Of a stretch of DNA of 64,000 nt, positions 17,441 through 64,000 are shown piece after piece (within the stretch, counting starts at the first letter, position 1; every line of letters starts with the position of its first letter). The notes under the pieces are model-generated. The model saw only the letters and a list, made by a program, of their open reading frames with translations. It had not been told where the DNA came from and made no database searches. Position numbers and translations under genes: made by a program. Origin of the DNA: Quercus robur (taxonomy: Eukaryota; Streptophyta; Magnoliopsida; Fagales; Fagaceae); assembly GCF_932294415.1 (NCBI RefSeq), contig NC_065536.1, forward strand, positions 14,939,974 to 15,003,973. Direction: 5' to 3'.

Positions 17441-19690
17441 TTTCACCTAAGTCAAGAAATTATAATAGTTCCACTTGTTCTATTTGGAAGGGAATTTGTC
17501 AAACTTTCAACTAAATTTGTTCTCTCTTTCCACCATGACATAAAATTTCTTGAAGTGCTCAAATACTTGGTCTTTTGTTTTCAAAACATAAACCCACATC
17601 TTTTGTGAAGTATCATCAATAAATATAACAAAATATTTATTGTTACCTAAAGTCTCAACATCAAGGGGACCACATATATCAAAGTAAACAAGATCTAATA
17701 CATTGAGTTTTCTAGTAGAGACTATATGAAATGGAATTAAATATTGTTTGCCAAGTAAACAAAAATGACAAGGATTTAGTGATATACCTTTGGCAAAGGC
17801 AACAAGTCCAGGGACTTCTTTATCAAAATCTGCTACCATTTTTCACTCATGTGAGCCAACCGCCTATGCCACAAGTTAGGCAAAGAATCTTCCTGAGCTA
17901 CACTAATAACATTATTGCACAAATTTAATTGTGTCTTGTAAAATGTACATCAAAATTTTCCTCTAACAAACACCAATGACCCGTTGGTAAGTCTCCATTT
18001 TCCATCACGAAAATAATTTTCATAACCTTCTTTATCAAGACCATGAGTGGAAATCAAATTAAAGTATATATCTAGAACATGTCTCTCATCCTTAAAAGTC
18101 AGGGTGTATCTAGTGTTAGCCCTAACACATATATCACCAATTCCCATAATATCGGCATAATTATCATTGCACATCTTCACTCTCCCAAAGTTTCTTGCTT
18201 CGTATGAAGTAAAGAATTCATTTCTTGGAGTAACATGACAGGAAGCTATCGAATCAATCACCAATTCACCATACGAATCTGAAATAGTACAATGATCATC
18301 CTGTCCTTTGGAAAGGACCACATCTTACAACACTGTGATAGCAGTGATGTTCTCATCATTCCCTTTTTTTTTTCTTTTTTTTTTTCAGATTTTTCTCTTT
18401 CTATTTGTTTTTCCAAGCCCTACATTAATTTCTTTTTATGTGACCTTCTTTATCATAGTAGAAACACTTAAATTTTCCTTTCAATTCTAACCGACTTCTG
18501 GATTTACCGCACCCCTCTAGAATTTCTACTCTTACTTCTCCCTCTATTATGACAAGAGCTTGTGCATTATCTTTGCCCATATCGTTTCTTCTAGTTTTTT
18601 TCATTAAGCAAACTATTTTTAACTATGGCAAGTTGTAGCTCAACATTAAGCAAAGTCTCTCAGTTGTTAAGTAAGGAACTCAAAAGTAATAAAGCTTGTA
18701 ATTCATCATCTATTATCAGCTTCATTGTGACTTACCTTCCTTAAGCTTCAAACACAAACTTTCTAGCAACAAAATCTTTCTTTTGAGTTGTCTTTCTTTC
18801 ATAGAGACTCTTAAATTTTTCCCAAAAAGCCTTTGTATTTTTGTTTCCTAAGACAAATGGTGAAAAACACTAACATCAATGAACTGTCTAATACACTCAA
18901 TGGTTTGTCTATTTAACTTCTTTCAGTCTCTATTAGACATATCACTAGGCATTGCACTATCACTCTCAATAGGGTCATGCAAATCCTTACAATAAAGGAC
19001 ATCCTCCATCATCGGCTTTCAAATTGAATAATTTGATGCTGAGAGTTTAATCATAGTATTCATAGTCATATTCTCCATTTAATCCAACACAAAACAGTCA
19101 TACCCAAGCAACCAATAGCTTTGATACCAAAAAACCTAAATCCCCTCAATGTCTATGTGTGGATTAAAATAATTTACTACCAAACAATAGCAATATCTAC
19201 AGAAAAAAATTTTTTAGTAAGCATAACAAAAACACTACCACACAAGAATACCAAGTCTTACATGAAAAACATTCTAGTGTAGAGGGAAAAATCACAATAC
19301 ATCTCCGAAAAATACCCACTATGAAAATAAAAATTATAACTCTCAAGTTTATGCCAAACTTGAGTTCACAATAAATTGGCGATACACAACAAATAAATCT
19401 CTAGGAGTAAAATACAATCTCACTATAAAACCTTGTAGTAAGATTTTTCTTTGAACACTCCAACATTTTGTGGTTATAGCACTCAAAAATCCTCCAAGAG
19501 AACTCCACCAATATATCTTCCTTGTTTGTAGCTTGAGCAAAGAAAAATGTTACATTTTTCTTTTTCACTCACTCACTCTCACCATGTATCTCTCTCAAGC
19601 TCTCTAACTTTCTTTGTGTTTCTCTCCTCAATTTTTTTGGAACTGAACTCACTGAAGCATTCTCACACAAATAGCCAAATGACCTTACTT
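17440..19690 (-). mobile_element. broken Ty1/Copia retrotransposon
   Basis: On the minus strand, from high to low coordinates: a terminal-repeat-like region (about 19130-19690), a tRNA-Met-type primer-binding site at 19118-19129, a gag-like region with a zinc-knuckle-like segment near 18450, a protease/GAG-pre-integrase region (17950-18321) and the start of a Copia integrase core (17507-17839, including NKYFVIFIDD). Order and sequence fit Ty1/Copia. No reverse transcriptase or second terminal repeat is present, so it is 3'-truncated and broken in several places. An old fossil. Confidence 0.8.
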
Positions 19691-23958: not shown

Positions 23959-26900
23959 TCAGTCTAAACAAATTACAAGACCAGGAACTGCTTTGGGATC
24001 AAGCTCCCAACAGCCTCTCAGGAGAATATCTTTTTCCCCCGAGTGCTGGAAAGCAGGAATCTGATGAGAGAATCTGGCAATCTCATCCCGCGGTATAACA
24101 ATGACACCAGATTTTGACCTCTGGATTCTTGGAGACCTGTAAACAGATGTAAACCCACTAAGAGGTGACAAAACCACAACTTCTGTGCTGTTGTCATTGA
24201 CTTCTAGTACTTCCACTATGTCACATTCTCCCTTCCAAATGTCAGAACTTGTCACCTCTAAGTTCAGGTTCTTGTATAACGCCCAAACCTCACCTCTTCT
24301 AGGGTAAATTTTGTATCTATACTTACCAACACGTTCAACTGTTAAACGATGAGAAAACTCTATGCGGGTAAGGACCTTAGTCCTACCATTTTTTACCTCA
24401 AACATGCCACAACAAACTGACTGATTAGTGTCTTTTGGCGGTGAGCAGGGTTTAAGCAATGCCACATGCAATCTAAAGTTAGGTGTGGATTCAATCTTCT
24501 TAACTTGAGCATAGTTCTTAGGCATCCCATCCTTATCAACATATATAGCCCATATCTGATCAAGCTGAAACTTCTCTTCTGATTTTTCTCCATAAAAGTC
24601 ATAGCACTCACCGGGGCTTTTTGTCAAACTACTGGAAGAATGGTCCTTCACAGGCAACTGCATTTTCTCATCAGACTGACAAGAAGCACCACCTTTGGAC
24701 TTAGTGAAGCTGCCACAGTTTTCGCCTATGTTGGCATCTGAATGCTTAACAGTTCCCTCATTCGTAGAGAGTCCATTTATCAGACCATTTTTCTTGCTTA
24801 AGTCCCTTGGCGATCTTCTAGGATTTAAGGACACTTGTTCAATATCTTTCTTCTTCTCATGCTTCTTTGGGGTGTTGATCTTCTTATCAGCCTGATGTGA
24901 AGTAGCAGTTCCTTTGGGCTGAGTGAGGTCACAATTTTCTTTACTATCATCCTCTTTGGTTTTACATTTGCTTGCATCTACTTGAACATTATTTGTATGT
25001 GTTCCATTTGATTGTCTTGGAAATCTTTCATGCATTGTGGTCTCTCTCCCTTGGTCATCCCCTTCATGCTTCATCGATGTGTCAGAACCCATAACATGTT
25101 CCATTTTATTTTCTGAGGATTTACAACACAAATTACTGACTTCAGCATCCATGCGTCCATTTTCCATCTTCACAACATTGGGATCATCATACAAATTGAA
25201 ATCAGTGGGCAGAGCAGCAGGATCGAGTTCAAAACATCCTTTGGGAACACCTTCTTTTTCCCCACCAGTCATTCTGAATGATGGAATTCGATGTGAAAAT
25301 CTATACAGCTCCTTAGGTGGTACTTGAAAAGAGGTAATTCCATGCTGCTTAGTTTGCTGGAAAAGGCTAACAAACCCCTTCACTTTGCCCAAATATGCCA
25401 CGTAAATGCCAAAACCATCAACAAAGTCTGAAAGGACTTCCACAAATTCAAATTTGAATGGCGTATTCTTTTCTGGGTCAGAACTCCATCTAATATCCCA
25501 ATTTTTGAAAAGAGCCCAAGTTTCTCCCTTTCTAGGATATATCAAGTATGAACCTCTACAACTGCCTTTTATGCAATGCATCTGATGAGAGAACATAAGA
25601 CGCTCAACGGCTTCTTCAGTGTTACCAAGTTTGAACTTACCACAAGCAACAGGCAATTCTCCATCACACCAATCAATCTCATCTTGGTCATCTGGATTGG
25701 CCTCCAACCAAGTGATCTGCAGCTTAAAACCAGGGGAGAACACTTTCTTGACACGGGCATAAAATCTTGGCATACCATCTAATGTATCATATATAGCCCA
25801 CATTTGATTAACAGCAAAGCAGTTTTCTTCCTTACCCTTCTCAAAATCACTAAACTCTTGATCAGGAACTTGAATAGCAACATCATCTGATGCAACATTA
25901 GAATTCAATCCAGATCTATCATCAACTTCAGACTTTCTGTCATCCTGATCTGGCATACCCTCTTCCTCTGTCTTTACATCACATTCTCCCATTTTGCACT
26001 TTTTGTTTGGCAAACTCTCTTCAGTGGCACTTGCTTTTTGCTTCACACTTTTCCTGGATGATTTGCAATTCTGCTTTGGAGGACTCACAAAATCATCATC
26101 ATCATCATTTAGATTCTTCTGGTGAGAAATATTTTCCTTTTGCCTTTGCCTTGAAGATCTCCTATGGTTCCCAGAATTCTGTCCAGAAGGATTACCACCA
26201 TTTTGGTGAATACCCACATCTTTTTCATTGTCGTCACTACCTCCAGTCTCATTACTTTCACTGGATTCCACAGCTGACTTCCTCCCTCTCTTCCTGCTCA
26301 CATTTTTCGATGATCCTGGTTTCTGAGCCTTTGCTGTGTTAGACTTGGTCATCTCAACACCTTTCTTCCCCACATGCCCATCTGCTTTCACTTCTGCTTT
26401 AGAACCCCCACGAACCTCAGCAGTGTTTCCTGCCTTTGACTTTGGATCTAACCCAGCAGATCTATCCGGAAATCTCACATTGGAAACATTTCCACCATTG
26501 CATTTTAAGGTTACTTTTGAGGGCCCCTGATTTGAAGCTACTTTTTGATTGGGAAACTGACCCCAGGGAGTTCTTACTGGAACATATTGAGTACCCACAT
26601 CCTGGGCAATGAAGGCTTTGGAGCAAGTCTGACATCGCAAGAGTTTATTCTCAGAACCTTTGTAGTATTGAAACCTAGTACTGCAGTGGGGGCAACATGT
26701 CCAGAATGTCTGGAATAGGGGTGCCTGGTGAATAGGATTCAAATTAGTGTAAGGCGGATGAGGAGGTTTATGGAGATTATTGTCAGCCCATGACTGTCTG
26801 TTGACAAACAAATTGCTATTTGACTGATGGGGTGGTGGCCTTGATTCGGCAGTCCTCGCTGAAGATGCATAATTCTTATCAAATGAAGTACGCTTTGCCT

Positions 26901-27261
26901 GGTCGGAGAGGACCCTATGTGCTTCCCCAACTAGCTTGAATGCGGCCTCTGCACCAGCAAGCTTATTTTTATCAGGATGAAGTAACAGTGCTAGCTTTCT
27001 GTACTGTTTCTTGATGGTCCCCTCATCAGCTGATTGTTCAATCTGAAGAATTCCATACCAGTCCAAATCTGACTTGCTAACCTTTATCAATGCAGAGCAA
27101 TGAACCTCACAGACTGCAAGCAATTGAGACATGTTCTCAAGCCCAGGAAACAGCTGCTGAGCCTTCATCGCAATCTTCCTTGCCCCTACAAAATCGTTTT
27201 CATGCATCTTCTTCTCTGCAATCCCCCTAGCCCTGATGGCCTCCTCTTTGTTGCATTCCAT
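23959..27261 (-). CDS. J-domain protein with two DUF3444 domains
   Basis: A single coding exon, 1100 aa. The frame stays open ten codons further upstream (to 27291) but without another ATG; 27261 is the first ATG and opens MECNKEEAIRARGIAEKKM, the usual start of this plant family. An N-terminal helical segment (about 1-60) is followed by a J-domain at about 66-130 with the HPD signature at 95-97 (LLLHPDKNK), which stimulates Hsp70 ATPase. A CxxC...CxxC zinc-ribbon-like segment (CCPHCSTRF and CQTCSKAF) follows near 190-220. The middle is Lys/Ser/Asp-rich with basic nuclear-localisation-like patches (SRKRGRKS). Two DUF3444 domains lie at about 480-695 and 895-1095; each starts (N/D)Q(M/I)WAIYD/V and contains YPR(K/R)GE(T/V)WAL(F/Y)KN and FSH(R/Q)IP(S/A)F. 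The family is a nuclear-type plant J-protein group; client and partner are unknown. Confidence 0.93.
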   Translation of the reverse strand: MECNKEEAIRARGIAEKKMHENDFVGARKIAMKAQQLFPGLENMSQLLAVCEVHCSALIKVSKSDLDWYGILQIEQSADEGTIKKQYRKLALLLHPDKNKLAGAEAAFKLVGEAHRVLSDQAKRTSFDKNYASSARTAESRPPPHQSNSNLFVNRQSWADNNLHKPPHPPYTNLNPIHQAPLFQTFWTCCPHCSTRFQYYKGSENKLLRCQTCSKAFIAQDVGTQYVPVRTPWGQFPNQKVASNQGPSKVTLKCNGGNVSNVRFPDRSAGLDPKSKAGNTAEVRGGSKAEVKADGHVGKKGVEMTKSNTAKAQKPGSSKNVSRKRGRKSAVESSESNETGGSDDNEKDVGIHQNGGNPSGQNSGNHRRSSRQRQKENISHQKNLNDDDDDFVSPPKQNCKSSRKSVKQKASATEESLPNKKCKMGECDVKTEEEGMPDQDDRKSEVDDRSGLNSNVASDDVAIQVPDQEFSDFEKGKEENCFAVNQMWAIYDTLDGMPRFYARVKKVFSPGFKLQITWLEANPDDQDEIDWCDGELPVACGKFKLGNTEEAVERLMFSHQMHCIKGSCRGSYLIYPRKGETWALFKNWDIRWSSDPEKNTPFKFEFVEVLSDFVDGFGIYVAYLGKVKGFVSLFQQTKQHGITSFQVPPKELYRFSHRIPSFRMTGGEKEGVPKGCFELDPAALPTDFNLYDDPNVVKMENGRMDAEVSNLCCKSSENKMEHVMGSDTSMKHEGDDQGRETTMHERFPRQSNGTHTNNVQVDASKCKTKEDDSKENCDLTQPKGTATSHQADKKINTPKKHEKKKDIEQVSLNPRRSPRDLSKKNGLINGLSTNEGTVKHSDANIGENCGSFTKSKGGASCQSDEKMQLPVKDHSSSSLTKSPGECYDFYGEKSEEKFQLDQIWAIYVDKDGMPKNYAQVKKIESTPNFRLHVALLKPCSPPKDTNQSVCCGMFEVKNGRTKVLTRIEFSHRLTVERVGKYRYKIYPRRGEVWALYKNLNLEVTSSDIWKGECDIVEVLEVNDNSTEVVVLSPLSGFTSVYRSPRIQRSKSGVIVIPRDEIARFSHQIPAFQHSGEKDILLRGCWELDPKAVPGLVICLD

Positions 27262-29010
27262 GGTTGGTTTGAAAATCAATAAATAAACCACCCAGGATAT
27301 TTAACATAAACTATATACACCAGGAAAGGGGTAGCTTTCTTTTGCCTTGTCTCTCCACAATCCAGCAATCATCCAAATTCCTCATCCTACAAGAATACAA
27401 CCCCAACAAGCTCAGTTGAATTCTACCAAACAATTTTGGTATTTCTCCACTAATATGAATTTACATATACAAGAGCCCACACCCATGTGTGATTGTGTGT
27501 GCGTGGTGATATACGAGTGAAATTTTATTAACAAAACCATAAATTACAACAGTTTACATACAACACTGAACTTCTAAAGCTGCAATGTGTATTAACTTAA
27601 CATCCCAAAACAGAAATTAGCAACTCACCCACCATCTTAGTAAACAATTTGAAGCGGAGACAGCCCCTAAACAGATTAGCCAAGCATTGGCCCTTTAGAA
27701 CCAAAAGGTTTTGAGCAAACCCACCAATGCACACAATAACCTAAACCCCAGAAGCCTTTGCAACTTGGAATTGAAACCTGAAACCCAAATAGTGATACAC
27801 TGAATAAGAATCGCCTAAACAACTGCCCAAAAATACCAAAATCAAAATGACACAATTTCTAGCTTTGATTGGTACGTTACACAGGCACACAATTTGAAAA
27901 GGGTTCCAAATTCAAATAAAAATAAGCAAAAATTTCACAAATGAGCTCTGGTTCAAACAGCACTTCTTTCATGGGTTTAATTTAAAGATTCAAAACCCAT
28001 TGAGTGGGTGGGTTGCATAACTTACCAATCAAAGAATAAGCAAACATTTGAACAAAAAAAAAAATCAAATCCAGCCTAAATAACGACATGCAAACCATTC
28101 TAAATAGAGAAGTGCTACGTTCACAACATTTTCACAACCAATTATAGGTGGTAAGTTGTTATTCGTTTTAATTTGAATTTACAACTTAAATTACTTTTGT
28201 GCTCATCCATAACAACCAATAACAACATGTCACTTAAGATTTATTGTAAAAGTGTTGTGAACACAACATTTCTCTTCTAAATAACTACTTAGAACAAAAA
28301 TCCTAGCACAAACCAATCAAAATCCCTACATTAAGTTGCTCAGAAAATACAGGAAAACAGAACAGAAAAAACCACAATACTGAATCTAAAACCAACTCTC
28401 CATTGCCTATAGAAACATAAATAAATAAAAACCCACTGAACTGAGTCCAATAAAGCCATTGACAACATAACCCCCCCCCCCCCCAAAAAAAAAATCTATT
28501 GCCCCACTATTTTCTTCCACTTTCCCATCTACCAAACAAACCCACATAACAAAACAGCACTATAAATAAATTCAAAAACCACAAAAAAATATAAAACCCT
28601 AGATTTTCAGCATCCAATACCACACAAGCAACAAATATACAAAACCCAGAACCCCAAATCGAAAAAAATAGTATCAAACATAAAAACCCAAAAATATAAA
28701 CAAGGCATGCATGCACGTAAATTAATTGCAAAATGAATGGCATTAATGTCCAAAAAGAAAATGAGAATGAGAGAGAGAGAGAGAGTTTCCAACCCTAACC
28801 TTTCAGAGAAGAAATTCCACAGTGAAAGAGAAAGAGAGAAAGAGAGAGAGAGAGAGAAAAAGATACAGAGAGAAAGAGAGAGAGTTTTGTATAGAAATTT
28901 TTAAGAGGTGGGGTTGGAGGGAAAGGATAGCGGGAAGTGAAAAAAAAACAGCGAAAATTGTTTTGGTTATTAGAGGGAAGAGGAGACTGCGGAGACAGCC
29001 CCTCTTATTT
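27262..29010 (-). other. 5' UTR and 1.4-kb leader intron of the J-domain gene
   Basis: An acceptor TTCTTGTAG at 27387-27395 leaves a 125-nt leader before the ATG. A donor AAG/GTTAGGGTT at 28798-28799 fits, giving intron 27387-28799. The upstream non-coding exon (28800 to about 29010) is CT-rich on the coding strand with long (CT)n runs. The intron hosts a 168-bp MITE (28107-28274), and part of it is duplicated at 37774-38154. I saw no convincing TATA box; CT-rich TATA-less promoters are common for plant housekeeping genes. Confidence 0.6.
28107..28274. mobile_element. MULE-type MITE, 168 bp
   Basis: The left end GAGAAGTGCTACGTTCACAACA and the reverse complement of the right end, GAGAAATGTTGTGTTCACAACA, are inverted repeats. 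A perfect 9-bp direct repeat ttctaaata flanks the element (28098-28106, 28275-28283). It lies in the 5' UTR intron of the J-domain gene. A relative lies at about 38520-38692. Confidence 0.8.
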
Positions 29011-32078: not shown

Positions 32079-32204
32079 ATGGAAAGGATGAGATCTTGCT
32101 TGTGCCTTGTAGTCATCATAATGCTTTTGTTTTTAAGATCTGAAGCTCGCCCTCTTAATCCAAACATGAAGGACAAGAAGAATCACCAATCCTTATTCAG
32201 GTAA
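32079..32204 (+). pseudogene. secreted peptide precursor, copy 1 (truncated)
   Basis: The reading frame gives 41 residues: MERMRSCLC, a hydrophobic core (VVIIMLLFL) and SEARPLNPNMKDKKN, then ends LFR and a TAA. The first 38 codons match copies 2 and 3 closely. After the stop the DNA stays alignable for only about 20 bp before turning unrelated. The region that encodes the putative mature peptide in the other copies is absent from 32.2-33.9 kb. The stop overlaps a potential AG/GTAATC splice donor, so a spliced product cannot be excluded formally, but I found no matching 3' exon. Most likely a truncated pseudogene with an intact signal peptide. Confidence 0.65.
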
Positions 32205-32697
32205 TCATTTCTAATAATGTAAACTAAGAATTTTCCTTTTTGGAAACTCTGCGGTTGCTTAACCAAAAACAACAAATTTTTTTTTATTCTCTTTTGATTG
32301 TTTTGTTTTGTTCAAAGACATATATTTGATAATTAAAGTATCATTGCATACAGCATACTAGAGGAGATTTTTTTTTTCAATGGTATTAAAGTTTCATTTC
32401 CCATATAGTAAGGGAGGAAGAGTAAAGGAGAGTAAATATAGTGCATTATTTGGCCTACAAGCCATTTTTCCGAATTTGACCTTGTTCCAATGCTTCACAG
32501 CAACAAATCTTTTCCCATACACAAGTTAGTTTTTTTTTGAAAATGTAGGTGTATGCATGTTAACATTCGTTGCACGGTTAGTAGTTTTGTTGCTACCAGT
32601 GTCCACATCGCTTAAAAAAGACAAAACAAAACAAAAACACCAAGCATATCCACCATCAATGAGCCCACCCGACCTCTACCATGCAAATGCTCCCTCC

Positions 32698-33422
32698 TAG
32701 GGGTGTGCAGAAAACCCACCGACCCGCCAAACCCGACCCAACCCAACTGGGTTCCCATCGGGTTGGGTCGGTTTTTAAGGCTTGGTGGGTTGGGTTGGGT
32801 TACAAAAAAAATTTATGGCGGGTTGGGTTGGGTTTGGGTCATAAAATTACAAACCCGCCAAACCCGACCCGGCCCACCCATATTTAATATATATTTAAAA
32901 TACATTTTATATTTAATAATTTTTTTTAAATCAATTGTAGGGCACTTTTATATATATATATATATATTATATTTAATAATTAAAAAAAAAAACCAGCTGT
33001 AGAGCAGCATTTCCTCAGTTCCTCCTATTAATACTAATTTAATATATATAATATATATTATATAATTAATAAAATTTTTTAAATAGCCAGTTCTTCCTAT
33101 CCTATATAAAAATCAATTAGTTCACACAAATCCTAATAAATTACTATTGTTGTTTAGTCATTAGTGTTGTTTGCCTTTAAAGAGTTACATTGATACTAAT
33201 CTTTTGGTTTTTTTAATATATTAATATTTTTTTTTTCTACTCAATTTAATAATAATAATAATAATAAAAATTTGTCAAACTCATGGGTTCAACCCGACCC
33301 AACCCGACCCATGTGGGTTGGGTTGGACTTATGTGATGGGTTGGGTTGGGTTGAATTTTTTTTGACCCACCATGGTGGGTTGGGTCAAAAAATCCCCTCA
33401 ACCCGACCCATGCACACTCCTA
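32698..33422. mobile_element. non-autonomous hAT element, 725 bp
   Basis: Terminal inverted repeats TAGGGGTGTGCA (left) and TGCACACTCCTA (right) differ at one position. The flanking 8-bp duplication ctccctcc is perfect (32690-32697, 33423-33430). Just inside the ends are complementary C-rich and G-rich tracts (repeats of acccgacccaaccc and gggttgggtt) that would fold back. No transposase. It separates peptide copy 1 from copy 2. Confidence 0.88.
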
Positions 33423-34229
33423 CTCCCTCCTAGGGGAAAATTAGCAAGACTCCCATTTTGTTAGTGCCGATTCAACGATGGAGCATCAGACAAAACCATT
33501 GATTCCAAAATTCTGTATATTGTGGTGTAGAAAAAAATTCATCTGTATATCTTTGCTTATATTCAGGACCACTAGATGCTTTTATTTGATTTTTGTTGTT
33601 ATGTATACCTTGTTGTAAGTCCTATATATTGTGGTCAACAGTTTAGAATTTTCCTCGTATATATGAATAATTACTTAGCCAAGTCATGAAACCCAAAAGC
33701 GACTTTTCATGATCCTTTAATTATTTACTTCAAAGTTCAAATCCCAAAGGGTTGGTTAATTAAGTAGTCCTAAAGTGTTATGATATTTATAAGATCTTAA
33801 ATTAATTCTAAACTTTTTACTAGTTTCTTGAGGCTATCTTCAAGGAATTCTTCCTTCTAATAATTTAGGGGACCTATATACACCTGAAGAAATAGTTAAA
33901 AACTCAAACAAGTCTGAATATTCTTGTTTGTCAAAAAAATAATTTATCTACTTCAAAACTAAACCTACTTCATAAGTCATAACCTTTTTTTTTAAGTTCC
34001 TCCTGATTTCAAGTTGTCTGTATTAGGAAACACGCGTGGAATGGAATTGATTTCAATGATGAGAGACCATAGTTCGGGTATAGGAAGGAAACAGGACTTT
34101 TGTGTGAAATATTATATTGATTTCATAGTAAAACTTTTACTATCTGTCAATTAGTATGTATTCAACTTAAAAAACTTCAAAGTTTCACAACCGTGTCCTC
34201 CCTAGTTTATAATCAAACACATAGAAAGA

Positions 34230-34370
34230 CAGTTCCTCTTCCCTATATATACTATATATAAATATAAAGATTACATAACAATTAACAATCCACAATCAGA
34301 ATCCTCACTAAAACACGTTATCCCTTAAGGCCGTGTGTATATTTTGAAACTACTAGCTAAACAAAAAAAA
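34230..34370 (+). promoter_or_regulatory. promoter and leader of peptide copy 2
   Basis: Contains ttcctcttccctatatatactatatataaa (TATA region) followed by taacaattaacaatccacaatc, homologous to copies 1 and 3. Confidence 0.5.
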
Positions 34371-34643
34371 TTGAAAGGATGATATATTGTGCATGTGTGC
34401 CTTACAATCATCATATTGCTTTTGTATTTTAGACTTGAAGCTCGCCCTCTTAATCCAAACATGAAGGACAGGAAGAACAGATCCTTATCCAGCTCATCAT
34501 TGTTAGCAATGATCAAAGATCGGTATGTCCCCAAACGAGAGATTCCAGGAGGTCCAAGGTTCCTTGGTGAAGTTGTTCCACTTAATAGAGGTCCTGTCGC
34601 ACCTTCTGCCCCTAATCCAATCACCCATGGTGCCAATCCCTGA
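34371..34643 (+). pseudogene. secreted peptide precursor, copy 2 (start lost)
   Basis: Colinear with the intact copy 3. The position of its start codon reads TTG here, and small length changes in the next 25 bases shift the frame, so no ATG opens the conserved frame. From about 34389 onward the frame is intact through the signal-peptide core (TIIILLLYFRLEA), the RPLNPNMKDRKN block and the C-terminal region GPVAPSAPNPITH, ending GANP at 34643. The C-terminal part has stayed close to copy 3, so loss of the start is recent, or translation begins at a non-AUG codon (a GTG at 34389 lies in frame). Confidence 0.7.
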
Positions 34644-39239: not shown

Positions 39240-39540
39240 CTTTTACTATTAGTTTAGTATTCAACTTAAAAAACTTCAAAAGTTTCACAACCGTGTGTCT
39301 TTTGCAACGAAATCTCTTTCCCAAAATTCCCTTTGGTTTCCAATCAAACACATAGAAAGACAATTCCTCTTCCCTATACTATATATATATTACTATTAGT
39401 CAATAAGTATATTCAACTTAAAAAACTTCAAAATTTCACAACCGTGTCCTCTTGCAACGAAATCTCTCTCCCAAAACTCCCTCTACTTTCCAATCAAACA
39501 CATAGAAAAGACAGTTCCTCTTCCCTATTCTATATATAAA
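39240..39540 (+). promoter_or_regulatory. tandemly duplicated promoter of peptide copy 3
   Basis: A 152-bp unit occurs twice. The block attcaacttaaaaaacttca starts at 39259 and 39411, and each unit runs through ttcacaaccgtgt, gcaacgaaatctct, ccaatcaaacacatagaaa and ttcctcttccctat to a TATA-type run (about 39377 and 39528). Copies 1 and 2 of the gene have one such unit. The proximal unit is at the correct distance from the leader, while the distal one repeats the TATA region and upstream sites. Confidence 0.75.
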
Positions 39541-39653
39541 TATCGATATTACATAACCATTAACAATCCACAATCAGAATCCTCATCAATATTCAATACA
39601 CGTTCTCTCCTAAGTCCGTGTATATTTTGAAACTATACTAGAGAGAAAAAAAA

Positions 39654-39929
39654 ATGGAAAGGATGAGATATTGCGTGTGCCTCTTAGTCATCATATTGCT
39701 TTTATTTTTTAGAATTGAAGCTCGCCCTCTTAATCCAAACATGAAAGACAAGAAGAACAGATCCTTATCCAGTTCATTATTGTCAGCATTGATCAAAGAC
39801 CGGTATGTCCCGAGACGAGAGATTCCAGGAGGTCCAAGGGTCCTTGGTGAAGTTTTTCCACTTAATAGAGGTCCCGTCCCACCTTCTTCCCCTAATCCAA
39901 TCACCCATGATGCCATTGCCAACCCCTAA
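39654..39929 (+). CDS. small secreted signalling-peptide precursor (IDA/CLE-like)
   Basis: A 91-aa, single-exon, intact frame. The first ATG follows an A-rich leader; a second lies at codon 4. Residues 1-23 form a signal peptide (MERMRYC, then VCLLVIILLLFF), with cleavage likely after IEA. The variable middle is basic (MKDKKNRS, LIKDRYVPRRE). The C-terminal part, EIPGGPRVLGEV then PLNRGPVPPSSPNPITH, is what copies 2 and 3 share best. LNRGPVPPSSP resembles the LPKGVPIPPSAP core of IDA-type peptides, while PNPITH resembles the CLE/TDIF ending PNPISN. I could not assign it firmly to either family. No cysteines lie in the mature part, so a proline-rich, processed apoplastic peptide is expected. 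Pro residues in PPSxP would be hydroxylation candidates. It lies within a tandem array whose other two members look disabled. Confidence 0.75.
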   Translation: MERMRYCVCLLVIILLLFFRIEARPLNPNMKDKKNRSLSSSLLSALIKDRYVPRREIPGGPRVLGEVFPLNRGPVPPSSPNPITHDAIANP

Positions 39930-42931: not shown

Positions 42932-45900
42932 TTATGTATTTCTTGCCAACGTATCTCTAATAAGTTGCTTTGGTGCTGCAAGGAAGATTGAGCCAAAAAT
43001 CATAAGAAAATGAAAGAGAAAAGTGAGGATGTATAGAAATTAGAAGTTTTATACAGGAACTCCTAGGTTTGTTAATATTGTTGGTTCATCTTACCTGGCA
43101 AACCAGTGAACTTTTCAAATTGTACAAATGCTTGGTTAATGAACATTTCTGTCCCATAAACAATAGTGGCTCCAGACTCTTCAGCTTCTCTTAAGAGTCT
43201 GGTTAGTTTCGGTGTGTAGATGGCATCAAAAACCAAAGAATAGTGCTTCAAAGCATGCTGTCAAGACAAAGAAAGAAGAGATGTCAACTTATTTTGTCAC
43301 AAGAAGATTAATTGTTAACTCATCATGATAAGTTAATGTCTTTGCCAATATGACACATGCTACAGAATTTCACCACATTTGCATACATTATTTAGAGAAG
43401 TTAAATTTTAAATGAAACAAGAGTTATAAGTAAATACTGCAGATTAAGCAAAAATTATTTTTTGGAAGAATAGTGAAACACATTATTTTCTTGACAGCTG
43501 TGACTGTGAGAGAGAATTATTTCACAAAACAAGTCATATAGCTAAACAGTTAACTCCGCCACATATAATCACTAATCTACTCAAAAGAGGAGAATCACAA
43601 GGAAAAATGATGGCTCTGTTGTAGTGAAAGTAGCTTAAAATTCTTTTTACCATATGAATGTATGTAGGCATTTTAAAAAAGAAACAACTTTTCGATGTGT
43701 ATCTGGAGAGAATTGAATGGTAAAGAGTAAATGATTTCAGATTGTAACAGCCCATGTAAACTGAAAGGTCTTGTCTTAGATATGCCATTCAATGATGAAT
43801 GAGTATGAAAAAACCAAAACATATATGGTGCTTCCTACAGGGATAAAAACCATCATCTTATATGGCACTATTTCATTCCACACAATGATGGACTTGTAAA
43901 AAAAAATGCATACAAAAAGAAATATGAAGCAATTAATTTTTTACTTGAGGCCAGTGAAAATTTCCAAGAAACATTCTCCAGCATTCAATTCAACAACAGA
44001 ATACATAAAATGACAGTGACAGGGAGGCAAACCTTGGGTAATGGTGTGTTCTCAATTTTTGGTTTCATTCCAACAGATGTAGTATTTGCAAGAATCATCC
44101 CCTCCTCTGGATGGAAATTTTCTAATTCAGCGAGACTTATAGCTTCTCCTCCAACTTTACTGGCAAGTTGTTTGGCTTTGTCTAGCAGCCACAAGAAAAC
44201 AAAAAAGTTCTCCAAGTTAGCAAGTAGATTAAATCAATGCTCCTCTCAGTAGGCTAACACTAGTTGAATAAGAAAAAATGATAAGTGCAGTCCCAAATTA
44301 TACCCACTCTGGATGCCTTTTCCTTTGCATTAGTGCAAGTATTTCTACATATTCTAAAAATTAACTTACACAAATAAATGACTCCAGTAATTTTCATGTC
44401 ATTCATCCTTGTGCTTTCGAAGTTATTGACAGAAACAGCAAAAAATATGAACAAACCCCACACTGGGAGGTGGGGGTGGGGGTGATTTTTCTTACTGGAA
44501 GCAATCTTCAACGTCATGGGTGAGTTTAAATGATTTTTACACTATATATCACGTGAGCTTACTGTAACAAAACTAGTCATTGTTGTTTTGAAAGTTCAAC
44601 TCTGGTCTCACTCCAAATGGTGATTTATGCTTTTGAAAGCTATAAAATACACATTAATAACAGAATAAACCAAAACTGTTCCACATAATTAAAGATTCTC
44701 ACCATATGAGCGATTGGCAACTACGACTCTTGCTCCCTTTTCTTTTCCACCAAAAGCAAGTGCCTTTCCAGCACCACCAGCTCCCATGACAACAAACAGT
44801 TTACCAGCCAATGGGGAACCAGATCCATTGCTTGCACCATTTGATGCTGCATATAAAAATTTGATATATTAAACTGATCCACCCAAAAAGTAAAATAGAG
44901 CATTGCATAGCTTGTAATATAATCTCAACCTCGAAGTCCTTCCTCGATAGCTGCAATGGCTCCAAGATAGTCAACATTGTAGCCCTTTAACTTCCCATCA
45001 GGTCTCCTGATCATGCAACTAATAGCTCCTATTTCCTATAATACAAATCGTAAAATTAACAAAGCTTGCATGACACTGAAAATATGGTTCCAGACAAACT
45101 TAGATATCTTGATTCATGAGGGTATGGAAAACTGTACAGTTGCGATCATAACTAAAGACATAATTGGATACCTTGGCAATTGGATCTATCTCGTCACAGC
45201 AATTAAATCCAGCCTCCTTGTGGGGAATTGTATAACTGCATTGTAAATAAAAATTATTTACATTAACAAAGAGAACAACCCAGGGTCCCAGACCAAACAT
45301 ATATTATGCCATCTAGACCAGACATTGCAAGCATATCTATCCTCTAACCATCGCATATTGCCTAGTTTACCATTATGGTAATTCAATATTTTTGGATCTC
45401 CACTATTTTCCTTTAAAATGTTCCGGACATTTATGGTGTTACATTTTTGTTGCTACTTGCATTGTCTTTAACTGTTTTACCTAATTAAGTCCACTTCCAA
45501 ATTCATTTGAGTATAAAATGAAGTCAAAGACTAAGAACCTGCTCCTGAATACAAGAATGATAAATAAAAGATAAAAAATATAAAAAGCAATTTATAGTTT
45601 GACAAAAGACAGCATTATTCTGAAGTTTCTAAAATGAGATTTTACCTGTATCCAACAAAATCAGGAGATGAGTAGGTGTTGAGAAAGTTTGCAACATTAT
45701 CAACCAACAGAGGCAAATAAATTCCATTAAAGCTTACTGACTTGAATGCTCCATTGTACAGATGAGGACTTTTGCTGTGACCAATAGGATTCCCAATAAC
45801 ACCATGTACTTTGGTATCGGGCCCTATCTGTCTGAAATTGTATAAATCCAACAAATCTGTTACACTTGGTTGCCCAGGAGCTGATACCACTCCCACCTCA

Positions 45901-48711
45901 ATAGAACCAAAAGTGAGAAAACCACCAAATTTTGCACTAAGTATTCTTGAAATAAAACCCTTCTCACCCATGACGATTCCGATCATTGGGACCTATAATG
46001 TCATTTGAAGTGTCATTCAGCTATGTAGGACTTCAAAAGACAGGGATATGACAAATAACAAGAGAAATTACAATAAAAAAAACTTTTATGTGGGGCTTCC
46101 TCAAAGAGGGAGCCAAATCAGTAGTGGTGGTAAGAATTGACAGGTTATTATTTTGCAGATAGTGCACATTGATTCTATCACATGCTCATCATGCAGTCTC
46201 TTATGGTTTACTATATATCAGCAGTTTACACATTTTGATAGATTGGACATAATTTACAAGTGACAGATTCCGAGATTTCAGGGACCAATAGAGAAGAGAA
46301 AAATACTAAACAATACTAAAGTTCATGAAGGATGAATATAGTGTATAAGTTACTTACTTGAGAATGCACAAGAACTTGAAAGACACGTGCAGAGTCTATG
46401 ATGTCCAAGGCAGTTGTTGCAACCTTCACTATGTCAGCTCCAGTAGATAGTATTTTTGCCACAAGATCGCCAATTTCTTCAACAGATGGAGTGTTTTGAT
46501 AGTTGTGTGAAGAAACAATAATTTTGACCTTTTCAGGTTTCTTTCCTTGAATGGCATTGTAGAAATCATGAGCTACCTTCAAGAGGCAAATTTAAATGTC
46601 TGAGTAACTTGTTCATGGGAATCACAAAGGAATATCTAGTTTGAGGAAAAAACAGAGCTGTTTAAAGTTTAAACATCATTATTGGCAGTTTGGAATATGG
46701 GTAGTTTACTAATGTATCTGAATCACATGTAATCATAATCACAAAAGATAATACCCATATATCTTATATCATATAGATCGTTGACTAAGGGCATAACACC
46801 AAAGAGAAGAAAGAAAACAATTTCAAAACATAGATGAGATAACAACCTTAAGCTCAACATCAACATAATCAGCTCCCAACTCCACGGCTAGACGTAATGC
46901 ATTTTGTCGCTGGCTTTCATCACCATCATACTGACCACCTTCCCATATTGGTCTAAAGGATGTATGATTCATGGTAAGTATTTGTTAAAACAGAATGAAA
47001 AATATAGTGTAAGAAATTCTTTCTTACACTTAACATGAGAAGAGAACTTGAAATGTTCCGATAAAGACTAAAGCAATAACTTACATCTTAAAAAATGCTA
47101 GAAATATAACTTACAAGATTAGAGTAATAAAAAAGAACCATGATCTCTAATTAACAATATTATCATTAAAGATATATTACTACTCAAAGGGTTTTCATGT
47201 AAAATTGTTTTGTTAATCATCAAGCAACATGAATGATGCATCACAATAACATGGCCAATAGATGATGTTTATATTTGATAGAACAAATGGATGGAATTTA
47301 ATGAAGAACTACTTTGAAACAGTGTGATCAGGCCTAGAAATGAAATGTCATTTTCTTTGCCCCCCACATGCCAAGACTGGACATATGGGTTATGAAGTGA
47401 AGGTCCTAAAATGGAGGATTGTGACAGAGGGCTAAATTACAAATTATACCCTCTAACTTTGATCTATTTTCTATTTGTTTCTTCATGTAGTTCCATCCAA
47501 TCTTGCATTAGTTTTATATTTTTCACTTTGCAAAAAGATGTTATTTTGGTGGACTTAACGGTGTGAATTGGACGGAAGGAATACATTGGGAACAAATGGA
47601 AGTTAAAGGACTGAAATGAAAAAAAAATAAAAAAATAAAATAAAATAAAGGACTGAATTGAAAATATGCCAAAGTTAGAGGGTGTAATTTGTAATTTAAC
47701 CAACATAAAACGAATATATGATGCAACTTGCATGATAACATCGACAATCAAAAGTGCCCCCAAGATTCAAATAGAGGACCTTTCAGGGTGGTTCAGACAA
47801 AAAGGTCTTAATTCCATGTTGGTTAACCAATTGTGCCCCCCCCCCCCCCCAAAAAAAAGGTTTTAGCATTTTTTTTTTTGGCAACCAAAGAAAGGTTTAA
47901 GCTAGTTGAAAATGTACGGATTATGTATACAAGCTAACAGCATATACAGCAAGCCTACATGAACAATATTCAACTTCAACAGATTAGACACATTTTTATG
48001 AGCTATATATTCATTACCTGTAAGTGATAAGAGTGGGCAAAGGAGATTGCTTGATCAAGATTTCAAGATCCTGTCTTGGATTGAAATTCTTCAAGAAGTC
48101 AACTCGAACCTCAACAAGGTCAGCACCAAGTTCCTTCGCCTTCCGCATCAGAAGCAGCATCTGATCAACCGTTTCCGCCATTACGGGCGCACATATTTGA
48201 GTGGAACTCCTTCGAATTCCACCTGAAATTTGAAGATCCGAGGTAGCCAACTACAAAAACACCAATTAAGACATGGAAAATTTTACAAAATCATCATGTT
48301 GAATTTAATTATGCAATTTATACACAATCACATACATAAAAGAAATCAAATTGCCTAGTTTGGTAGCTGAACAAGTGGAAACTGAATATAAAATGAAACG
48401 TTTGAAGCTTTGATTTTATATTCACTTTTCATTTCCTTGGTTTTCCCAGAAATTAAATTGAGAGAAACAAAGGAAATTAATCAAAATATTGAATCTTTCA
48501 CTTCCAAACATTTGAGAAACTCAAAAAAATGAATCACCCATCAACTTTTTCCAGTCCTGATCACCAGTTGACTTAGTACCAAAACAACAAGAACAATAAA
48601 ACCCAAAACCCCATTTCCATTTCCGTTCCAAATTGTCCACTTTCTTAGCAACCAAACAGAGAAATGGAAACATCGAAAGAGAGGTGTTACCGGAATGCTG
48701 CTGAGAGTCAT
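42932..48711 (-). CDS. bifunctional 3-dehydroquinate dehydratase/shikimate dehydrogenase, copy A
   Basis: Eleven exons, high to low: 48691-48711, 48018-48250, 46847-46952, 46358-46576, 45646-45992, 45172-45235, 44930-45035, 44703-44846, 44033-44181, 43095-43257, 42932-42975. All introns are GT-AG and phases close, giving 531 aa. It would catalyse steps 3 and 4 of the shikimate pathway. Type I dehydratase domain (about 25-240): SSHN with His144 and the Schiff-base Lys in ADIVKVATTA (Lys171). Shikimate dehydrogenase domain (about 255-531): HSKSP (Ser266, Ser268), TIPHKE (Lys315), GYNVDYLGAI (Asp352), the NADP motif GAGGAGKA (387-394) and NRS (410-412). Odd points: the usual NTD motif reads NVD, NRT reads NRS, and TIPHKE is preceded by Tyr. 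No clear chloroplast transit peptide is visible. The substrate could be shikimate or quinate. A tandem copy follows at 61158. Confidence 0.93.
47429..47701. mobile_element. MITE in intron 2 of DQD/SDH copy A
   Basis: The left arm starts ggctaaattacaaattata with ccctctaactttg; the right arm is its inverse (caaagttagagggtg, taatttgtaatttaac). Arms are about 35 bp and the interior is 200 bp. Long arms suggest a MULE-type element, but a target duplication was not clear. Confidence 0.6.
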
Positions 48712-61157: not shown

Positions 61158-63690
61158 TTACGCGTGCTTCTCCATGAGTTGCCTAAACAAATCTTCTGGT
61201 GCTGGAATTATAAATGAAACAGATTCAAAATAAAGCCCAACGAGTTAGTAAATATTAAGAACCAATAACTTAGGACTTAAAAATACAACAACAATATGGT
61301 GCATCTTACCAGGCAAACCGGTGAAATTTTTGTATTGTTCAAAACCTTGACGGATCAACATCTCCGTCCCATAGACAACAACAGCTCCAGTCTCTCTTGC
61401 TTCTCGCAAAAGTCTGGTGTCCTTTGGTGTGTAAATGGCATCAAAGACCACACAATAATGTTTTAGAGCTTCCTGCAAAATCAACCAAATACATTTACTT
61501 ATTTGGCATATAAGTTGATGAACCTATCATGATGTAACTACAGTATGTTGTTTGATGCAGTGCATCAATGTCACTTCAATTTTCATCCAGCTGTTCCACT
61601 TTTTGAGCAAAGTCTCTTTAATTTTTTTTTTAAAATTAAATATTGACATCAATACAGCCTTCGACATGTATCATTGTTACAGATTCAACATGTTGATCTG
61701 TAGCATACATGAGACCTTTTTTTGGGTAAGTAGCATATATGAGTAAGTAGCATATATGAGACTGACATCATGATGGAATGGCTTAGTGACCCTTTATGCA
61801 AGGTTTAGTGAAAAAGAAAGTAAGATGAGAAATATATGAGGCAAACCTTTGAAATGGGAGTCAAATCAATTTTAGGTTTCATTCCCACAGAAGTAGTATT
61901 TGCAAGAACCATCCCTTCTTCTGGATGGAAGTTTTCTATTTCAGCAAGAGTCATAGCTTGTCCACCAACTTTGTCAGCCAGTTCTTTCGCTCGTTCTGTT
62001 AGAAGAAGACGCATGTCATTCAAGTAATTGCAAAGATTGTTCATAAACTTTAGGACTTACAAGGTATGTAGTTTGTGCTAAAAAATATATGATAGATAAT
62101 TTGTATTCTCTCTATAGAAGCAATACCAAATTTGAGGAATTATGTTTTAGCTCATTGTTTCATGAGATGTCTTTTGAAATAGTATATGTTCTGAAACACA
62201 GAGCTAGGTTATTACCAAATGTACGATTGGCAACCACAACTCTTGCTCCCTTCTGTGCAGCACCATAGGCAAGTGACTTGCCAGCACCACCAGCTCCCAA
62301 GACAACAAACAATTTACCAGCTAAGGGTGATCCAGCTGAAGGAATTGTACCGTTCAAACCTGTAAAAAGGAGAACACCAACTAAGTGAACCATGAAAAAC
62401 AAGAACGAAAGAAAAAGAACTTGTCTAAACATCTCTTGGATAGCTTGTAGAGCACTCAAACCTCGTAGTCCATCCTCAATAGCAGAAATAGCACCAATGT
62501 AGTCAGTATTGAAAGCAATTAATTTTCCATCAGGTCTCCTGACAATGTTATTAATAGCTCCTATTTTCTGTAAAGAATCAAAAAGTAATGGTAAGTAACT
62601 AATAAATTTCTGAGTAATATCATAACATACAAATTATAAAATATTTCAAGGTGAAGAGATAATCAGATACCTTGGCAATAGGGTCAATTTCATCCATGCA
62701 CTTCAGTGCTGCCTCCTTATGTGGAATTGTACAGCTGCATTCCAAATTCAATTTCTATTATTTTGCTTATCAAGAAAACAAAGTTCTAGCAATCTTATAC
62801 CATACAGAAATATGAGCATGGTCTATGCTAAATCTCTCTAGCAGATTATTCTTCTGCTAGTACTAATTCGGCACAATGACAAGTCATAGCAGCCAAGGTA
62901 CAGCAATTCAAAGCTGTTGGTTTAATTCTCAGTGCTCAGAGAAACCAAACTAAATTGATGCTATAAATATAAAATTTTGAGATATATCTCCTACATGGAG
63001 GAAATCTTACCTGCATCCGGACCAATCAATGGATGAATAGGTATTGAAAAACTTTTCAACATCATCCACCAAATAGTGCACATAAACTGCATCAAGACCA
63101 ACTGACTTGAATGCTGCATTGAACAGAAGTGGACTCTTACTGTGTCCAACAGGCTTCCCAATAATACCATATACTTTAGTATCAGGCCCAATAAGCCTAA
63201 AGTTATATAAGTCCAATAAATCTTTTGCTGTTGGTTGACCAGGAGCTGATATAGCACCAGCCTCAAGTGCACCATAAGTGAGATACCCACCAAACTTGGG
63301 GCTAAGTAACCGCGAAATCAAACCCCTCTCACCCATAACAATTCCTATTGTTGGAACCTACACGTTTCGGCAGATTTGTCAATTGAGCTTCACAAGGATA
63401 CAGTTTTATGGAAAACTGTAAATGAACAAAGTTTAGTAGAAAAGTAAATCCATGCAATGTGCATTACATACTTGAGAATGCACCATTATCTGAAAAATGC
63501 GTGCACAATCTGTAATGTCCAATGCAGTTGTTGCAATCTTCACTATGTCAGCTCCGGTAGCCTGGATTCTGGCAACAAGATTGCCAATGGCCTCAGCAGA
63601 TGGAGTATTGTGAAAATTGTGTGAAGAAACAATGAGTTTGAAGTTATCAGGCTTCTTTCCGTTGATGGAACTGGTGAAGTCATGAGCAAC
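61158..63690 (-). CDS. bifunctional 3-dehydroquinate dehydratase/shikimate dehydrogenase, copy B (partial)
   Basis: Eight exons are in the window: 63472-63690, 63011-63357, 62671-62734, 62462-62567, 62216-62359, 61847-61995, 61310-61472, 61158-61201. Together they encode the last 411 residues. Their lengths (219, 347, 64, 106, 144, 149, 163, 44) equal those of copy A exons 4-11 exactly, with the same phases. The first three exons lie beyond position 64000. Catalytic motifs are canonical: SSHN and ADIVKIATTA in the dehydratase part; HSKSP, CTIPHKE, FNTDYIGAI, GAGGAGKS and NRT in the shikimate dehydrogenase part. It ends DLFRQLMEKHA. This is the better candidate for the housekeeping plastid enzyme of the shikimate pathway. 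Same strand as copy A, about 12.4 kb upstream of it in transcriptional terms. Confidence 0.93.
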
Positions 63691-64000
63691 CTGCATAGTA
63701 GGTGAGCTTGGAAATCTAAGTAACTTGTTACTCAAACATGCAATCACATAGTTTTGACATTTTTCAACCATTTTACTTTCTATCATAATTTCAACCAAAT
63801 AGAAAGAAAATAGGTTTCATATAGATATTAAGCCACAGGAAATATCAGAGAACCCAGATTTAATGGTGTAATGAAAATGGAGGGTACGTATAACTATAAA
63901 CATCAAATAATTGCTAATGAATTTATTCATTCAATAATTTCTTTGACTGCATAGATAGGCCCCAAAAAAAAAAAAAAAAAAACATGTTCTTATAAAGAAT
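63691..64000 (-). other. intron of DQD/SDH copy B
   Basis: The acceptor CTATGCAG ends at 63691 on the minus strand. No counterpart of copy A exon 3 appears before the window ends, so this intron is longer than the 270 bp of its copy A equivalent. Confidence 0.7.

Follow-up and report, generated by a model that had tools for sequence, protein, structure and literature searches.

A short secreted-type precursor of Quercus robur with a predicted peptide that resembles both IDA and CLE signals

A short precursor gene in the genome of Quercus robur carries a 12-residue motif, PVPPSSPNPITH, which resembles both the IDA and the CLE families of plant peptide signals, and this resemblance is beyond chance. 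IDA is the hormone of organ shedding. The gene is copy 3 of a group of three tandem copies recognized as direct repeats, and no other intact copy was found in the window, by which is meant the whole stretch of DNA analysed (64 kb of contig NC_065536.1). The motif, its relation to known peptides, the history of the three copies and the receptors that might perceive the predicted peptide are considered below.

The intact precursor and its motif

The open reading frame of copy 3 (39654-39929, +) is real, and its coordinates, strand and translation were given exactly in the preliminary description, as was its C-terminus, LNRG-PVPPSSPNPITH-DAIANP (Table 1). The predicted product runs from a charged start through a strongly hydrophobic stretch to IEA/RPLN, the slash marking a probable cleavage site that was placed there on the assumption that the -3,-1 rule applies; it continues with a basic middle region and closes with the C-terminal end just mentioned, in which the motif occupies residues 74-85 of 91. 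Hydropathy in the N-terminus, MERMRYCVCLLVIILLLFFRIEA/RPLN, peaks at 3.7 over 12 residues (residues 8-19), and this signal-peptide-like start supports the earlier claim of a secreted-type precursor. Among the 57 ATG-initiated open reading frames of 60-150 aa in the 64-kb window, three have a strongly hydrophobic start, and one of these three, copy 3, also contains a 12-mer that scores above 10 bits for CLE or IDA. A TATA-like hexamer lies at -123 in the proximal promoter. An antisense frame of 92 aa (39638-39916, -) is open across copy 3, and copy 2 also has an open antisense frame across it. The frame across copy 3 was set aside as a gene, since the signal-peptide-like start, an A-rich start context and the leader shared between copies are all found on the sense strand.

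Table 1. Coordinates of the tandem copies and of the elements of copy 3, in positions of the window.
Feature	Positions	Strand	Basis or remarks
Copy 1, truncated on the 3' side	32079..32201	+	ATG, signal-like start, RPLNPNMKDKKN, six residues, stop
Copy 2, pseudogene-like	34370..34643	+	start lesions; C-terminus PVAPSAPNPITHGANP
Proximal promoter and 5' leader of copy 3	39526..39653	+	repeat family D4 shared between copies
Intact precursor gene, copy 3	39654..39929	+	91 codons + TAA, single unbroken frame
Probable signal peptide MERMRYCVCLLVIILLLFFRIEA, then Arg (R24)	39654..39722	+	hydropathy peak; predicted cleavage site
CLE-like half motif REIPGGPRVLGE	39816..39851	+	residues 55-66; noticed after the fact
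Predicted mature dodecapeptide PVPPSSPNPITH	39873..39908	+	IDA score 17.1, CLE score 16.6
C-terminal tail DAIANP, six residues, presumed trimmed	39909..39926	+	translation

The motif was scored with two matrices of 12 columns each. The CLE matrix was formed from 44 distinct tomato CLE motifs (52 rows in Table 1 of PMC9670457), and the IDA matrix from 18 distinct IDA-like motifs (Table 1 of PMC6971993, Table 1 of PMC12903503, and PMC4627355), with AtIDL1 taken from PMC4627355 and with SlIDA7 and NbenIDA1A dropped. Among the 58,991 12-mers read from the six frames of the window, PVPPSSPNPITH had the highest IDA score (17.1 bits) and, after copy 2 (16.8), the second-highest CLE score (16.6 bits). 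When the residues of the motif itself were shuffled, its own score was reached in 5 of 20,000 permutations for CLE and in 11 of 20,000 for IDA. Shuffling the last 45 residues of the precursor gave a 12-mer at the respective score in 16 (CLE) and 30 (IDA) of 20,000 cases, and in none of the 20,000 were both scores reached by the same 12-mer; the match is thus not due to proline content alone. The preliminary description had divided the motif into an IDA-like and a CLE/TDIF-like half, and the column scores bear out this division, being IDA-like at positions 1-5 and 7 (3.4, 1.6, 3.5, 3.5, 2.7 and 3.6) and CLE/TDIF-like at positions 4, 7-10 and 12 (3.7, 3.5, 2.8, 3.6, 1.8 and 3.3). Its comparison of the preceding LNRG with the LPKG of IDA holds in part, in that the two do align, but only with a gap of one residue, IDA reading LPKG-V-PIPP.

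A further CLE-like stretch, REIPGGPRVLGE, is found upstream of the motif within the same precursor. Its CLE score of 13.8 bits, noticed after the fact, is the third best among the 58,991 12-mers of the window, and shuffling the mid-region of copy 3 reached it in 27 of 20,000 cases; the fit is mainly to CLE positions 1-7 and hardly to positions 8-12. The counterpart in copy 2, REIPGGPRFLGE, scores 13.0. Precursors with two motifs have been described for PIP2, PIP3, PIPL1 and CLE18 (PMC4526919), and the stretch, with its REIPGGP, may represent a degenerate second peptide motif.

Relation to known peptide families

Curation of the IDA/IDL family has relied on a length below 120 aa, a hydrophobic secretion signal and a motif near the C-terminus (PMC4627355), and copy 3, with 91 aa, has all three. 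The precursors of IDA, IDL, PIP and PIPL peptides carry in addition a conserved Arg past the signal peptide, and those of IDL peptides may extend up to 13 residues beyond the motif (PMC4526919); copy 3 has such an Arg, provided that cleavage takes place as predicted (EA/RPLN), and a tail of six residues. Within the motif (positions being numbered here along the printed 12-mer, which differs from the numbering of the source paper), the Pro/Ser set of PIPPSAPS is represented by P3, P4, S5 and P7, while S8 is replaced by Asn, and the [R/K][R/K]HN end of IDA is absent, the motif ending in P-I-T-H. The heavily weighted sites of CLE peptides are R/H1, G6, P7, N/D8, P9, H11 and N/H12 (PMC7552357, and the table of PMC9670457), of which PVPPSSPNPITH has P7, N8, P9 and H12 and lacks R/H1, G6 and H11. 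The marks of PIP and PIPL peptides are likewise absent from copy 3, the core being SSPN and not SGPS and the end DAIANP and not GxGH. Because S8 and R-H-N of IDA are missing, as are R/H1, G6 and H11 of CLE, the motif would strictly be a member of neither IDA nor CLE.

In leave-one-out scoring of the 18 distinct IDA-like motifs, the minimum was 22.5 (SlIDA11), and the 17.1 of PVPPSSPNPITH, obtained with a matrix that includes SlIDA11, lies below all of them; the best CLE motif on the IDA matrix, RLVPSGPNPLHN, reached 16.2. On the CLE matrix, PVPPSSPNPITH is level with HKPPSGPNPNGN, which at 16.6 is the lowest of 44 leave-one-out scores of tomato CLEs, and IDA-like motifs scored 18.0 (SlIDA11) and 16.6 (PIPPSEPSPRHN). 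Two known motifs fit both matrices better than PVPPSSPNPITH does, namely the transitional motif PVPPSGPSPCHN (CLE 19.1, IDA 29.1) and the CLE9 variant PIPPSGPNPLHN, in a spelling that is this analysis's own (CLE 25.8, IDA 28.2); the 12-mers of PIP1 and PIP2 fall below zero on CLE and IDA matrices alike. Pfam, which may lack CLE and IDA profiles, returned no family at E values up to 10 for any of the three copies; PDB chains of at least 20 residues gave one weak match, to a threonine aldolase (E 1.8); and among viral contigs three stretches fitted a pattern, none of them a relative. A profile search, named in the preliminary description as a means of refutation and performed here in a small form (Pfam and the two matrices), placed PVPPSSPNPITH in no existing family.

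The statement that no named family has this combination was nevertheless too strong, for although no family fits strictly, transitional IDA-like CLE candidates and SlIDA11 were already known. IDA-like CLE candidates of the SVPP, PVPP and RIPP types (6, 7 and 8 genes) were described in 2020 and called transitional between CLE and IDA (PMC7552357). According to the same text, the PVPP-type genes all encode PVPPSGPSPCHN, which was clustered with IDA/IDL by its authors; it is identical to PVPPSSPNPITH at 7 of 12 positions, with the PVPPS-x-P start and P9 in common, and has G6, S8 and a C-H-N end where the oak motif has S6, N8 and I-T-H. Tomato SlIDA11, PVPPSGPSPIGN, likened here by its 12-mer alone, is identical at 8 of 12 positions, including P-I at 9-10, and differs in having G6, S8, G11 and N12; its precursor is short too (97 aa) and lies, according to its authors, in a gene cluster (PMC12903503). 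IDA itself, PIPPSAPSKRHN, has P1, P3, P4, S5 and P7 in common with the motif (5 of 12; PMC4627355, PMC6971993, PMC4848090, PMC4526919), and in these sources IDA/IDL precursors share with copy 3 the signal peptide, the Arg behind it and the short C-terminal tail; S8 and the R-H-N end are what the oak motif lacks by comparison. The likeness to TDIF/CLE, HEVPSGPNPISN, extends to P4, S5, P7, N8, P9 and I10 (6 of 12), and H12 is found as in CLEs ending in H-H (both from PMC9670457), whereas H1, E2, V3, G6, S11 and N12 of TDIF are replaced and the tail of copy 3 is longer. Identity at 7 of 12 positions is also seen with an engineered CLE9 that carries the N-terminus of IDA (R109P/L110I/V111P) and for which the cited text reports no detectable binding to BAM1 (PMC8847575), whereas PVPPSSPNPITH is a natural mix. 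The strings PPSSPNP, PVPPSSP, PVPPSAPN, PVAPSAP and PSSPNPI were not found in the main texts searched. Peptides of this kind are known, and within these main-text searches the variant S6-P7-N8-P9-I10-T11-H12 seems to be unreported; the peptide of copy 3 is an interesting variant, not a new kind of signal.

Tandem copies and coding constraint

Copy 2 does read PVAPSAPNPITH (34593-34628), as had been described, but it is not intact as a gene. In the place of the first ATG it has ATT. The second ATG is retained, but an insertion of 4 nt puts the sequence behind it out of frame, so that reading from there yields 17 residues and then a stop; and the open frame with the motif is immediately preceded by a TGA. 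These changes leave copy 2 without a usable start. It is 91% identical to copy 3 over 234 coding nt, and 65 of 78 residues are the same. The preliminary description had missed a third, truncated copy, copy 1 (32079-32201), which is identical to copy 3 at 29 of 35 positions over residues 1-35 (tblastn). Copy 1 diverges at a splice-donor-like CAG/GTAATC (32198-32206), which could be a donor to another exon or the truncation point; its C-terminal half was looked for downstream within the window, and none was found. A second intact gene in the cluster was thus rejected, copy 2 having no usable start and copy 1 no C-terminal half. The leader repeat (family D4) is 92% identical between copies 2 and 3 at 39526-39585 and 63% identical between copies 1 and 2, and since it is common to all three copies, these look like duplications of one gene unit including its promoter.

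Comparison of the copies gave a dN/dS of 0.63 for copies 2 and 3 over 78 codons (7 synonymous and 14 non-synonymous; Fisher p 0.42), of 0.38 for copies 1 and 3 over 35 codons (p 0.22) and of 2.51 for copies 1 and 2 over 27 codons (p 0.68); in none of these comparisons, which have little power, was the ratio significantly below 1. Substitutions between copies 2 and 3 number 8, 6 and 7 at codon positions 1, 2 and 3. The preliminary description regarded SxPNPITH as the constrained part of the motif, a claim that is left unsupported because dN/dS over the last 21 codons that can be compared is 1.15 (3 non-synonymous, 1 synonymous; again a comparison of low power) and because copy 2 is broken. The open reading frame is not significantly more identical between copies 2 and 3 than its flanks (0.91 vs 0.875, p 0.14). 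Its whole 276 nt hold two indels, one being the insertion of 4 nt and the other an in-frame indel of 6 nt in the tail, against 10 expected from the flanks (Poisson P 0.003); the 234 coding nt compared above hold none, a stretch picked because it is indel-free. The flanks have 33 indels in 912 aligned nt, counted in four blocks that were chosen as alignable and one of which overlaps the last codons of the frame. The lower GC of the flanks (0.25-0.33 vs 0.43 in the frame) may raise their indel rate and so weaken the contrast, and one flanking block runs for 159 nt without any indel. This scarcity of indels is the one remaining sign of past coding constraint.

Other features were recorded along the window, the GC content of which is 32.7% and which, judged by its gene content and the motif, resembles nuclear DNA of a plant. 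Upstream of copy 3 there is a direct repeat with a spacing of about 150 nt (39258-39358 and 39410-39508), which copy 2 seems to have once. About 0.5 kb downstream of the truncated copy 1 lies an element of about 0.7 kb (32698-33423), presumably hAT-like, whose terminal inverted repeats read TAGGGGTGTGCA / TGCACACTCCTA and which is flanked by an 8-bp duplication, CTCCCTCC. Farther away are two related loci for dehydroquinate dehydratase / shikimate dehydrogenase, separated by about 17 kb (45645-46591 and 63010-63816, -), an open frame of 1113 codons with matches to DnaJ and DUF3444 (23962-27300, -), an open frame with a match to the Development and cell death (DCD) domain (7706-8536, -) and a retrotransposon polyprotein remnant with a match to Pol_BBD (17953-18324, -).

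Perception of the predicted peptide

The reading tentatively preferred here, with a chance somewhat short of even, is that copy 3 gives rise to a dodecapeptide with hydroxyproline, IDA-like with a CLE-like C-terminus, which is perceived by a HAESA/HSL-type receptor; secretion, cleavage, hydroxylation and receptor are all deduced from the sequence and from published relatives. Copy 3 would then encode a pre-propeptide of the SGP-type superfamily of plant peptide hormones (CLE, IDA/IDL, PIP, CEP), which its signal peptide would send to the apoplast, where proteases would release the peptide by cutting directly N-terminal to PVPP and removing the DAIANP tail. With its central proline, at position 7, hydroxylated, the free peptide would occupy the groove of a leucine-rich-repeat receptor kinase in an extended form. 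Its P-V-P-P N-terminus and the core residues S5 and P7 would fit the HAESA/HSL subgroup, and the same start would be expected to prevent binding to BAM/PXY-type CLE receptors; Asn8 and the missing Arg-His-Asn end would make binding weaker than that of IDA, or would go with a co-receptor contact of its own.

Receptor studies provide the logic of this proposal. HSL1 takes the proline-rich N-terminus of IDA and reads its S5/Hyp7/S8 core; S5 and Hyp7, which IDA and CLE9 have in common, enable CLE9 to bind HSL1-SERK1, although CLE9 binds HSL1 weakly, its N-terminus being shifted away and Asn standing for Ser at position 8, where Asn is worse than Ser for HSL1 (PMC8847575). In the same report, the V3P change in CLE9 moved BAM1 binding from 100 nM to 3000 nM (30-fold weaker), and a full P-I-P start made it undetectable. 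As BAM1 needs the N-terminus of CLE9, and the swapped CLE9 is 7/12 identical to PVPPSSPNPITH, perception by HAESA/HSL receptors and no BAM/PXY binding are predicted. The C-terminal R-H-N is read by HAESA and SERK1 (PMC4848090), and the IDA mutant K66A/R67A/H68A binds HSL1 about 15-fold more weakly (PMC8847575); the lack of R-H-N in PVPPSSPNPITH therefore counts against a HAESA/HSL ligand. Also counted against it are the sub-IDA score, which exceeds that of the best CLE motif by little, a CLE score that IDA-like motifs attain too, the better fit of PVPPSGPSPCHN and the CLE9 variant to both matrices, dN/dS values that give no sign of selection on the motif and the breakage of two of the three copies; counted in its favour are the build of the precursor, the column scores, the joint shuffles, the few indels of the open reading frame and the receptor logic itself.

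The mix of motifs might instead mark a separate family with its own receptor, the peptide being a ligand of an RLK7-, CEPR- or HSL3-like or an orphan receptor. The absence of the defining residues of IDA, CLE and PIP favours this, and further members of the HAE/HSL2 receptor subgroup, to which the receptors of the PIP1-RLK7 and CEP-CEPR1/2 pairs belong, are candidate receptors (PMC4526919); it is nonetheless considered rather unlikely, in that positions 1-5 and 7 are those that fit IDA to HSL1 (PMC8847575), and SlIDA11, with the same P-I at 9-10, was found through a search of tomato with Arabidopsis IDA (PMC12903503). Unlikely, too, is a cluster in decay, with copy 3 as a functionless, lineage-specific remnant or as the source of a secreted, proline-rich peptide with no role as a signal. 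The truncation of copy 1, the two lesions at the start of copy 2, dN/dS values none of which is significantly below 1, the even spread of substitutions over codon positions (8, 6 and 7) and an identity not significantly above that of the flanks (0.91 vs 0.875, p 0.14) would all suit such decay, but copy 3 is intact, with a signal-peptide-like start, a shared leader and few indels, and the joint match to IDA and CLE arose in none of 20,000 shuffles.

That the peptide is a divergent CLE, with PVPP as a drifted CLE N-terminus and with receptors of the PXY/BAM/CLV1 type as its targets, is judged improbable. The good fit of CLE columns 7-10 and 12, a CLE score level with the lowest of 44 tomato CLEs (HKPPSGPNPNGN), the 6 of 12 identities with TDIF and the CLE-like REIPGGP upstream of the motif point that way; against this stand the missing R/H1, G6 and H11, the 30-fold weakening of CLE9-BAM1 binding by Pro3 and its loss from detection with the P-I-P start (PMC8847575), and a tail of six residues, where about two thirds of the CLE candidates in the cited text have 0-2 (PMC7552357). 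Improbable as well is a chimeric ligand of natural origin, in which an IDA-type docking half would be joined in register with a C-terminal half of the CLE/TDIF type, with REIPGGP kept as a degenerate CLE-like half motif, and which would form its own family with its own receptor pairing, or bridge HAESA and CLE perception, as a living intermediate from the common origin proposed for CLE and IDA.

CLE and IDA peptides use related yet selective receptors (PMC8847575), and a few transitional motifs have led to the proposal that the two families share an ancestor (PMC7552357). The peptide of copy 3, as a candidate signal, is a lead. As a natural peptide near the laboratory swap between IDA and CLE9, it would make it possible to test directly which half sets receptor choice, and PVPPSSPNPITH would also test whether transitional peptides are real ligands.
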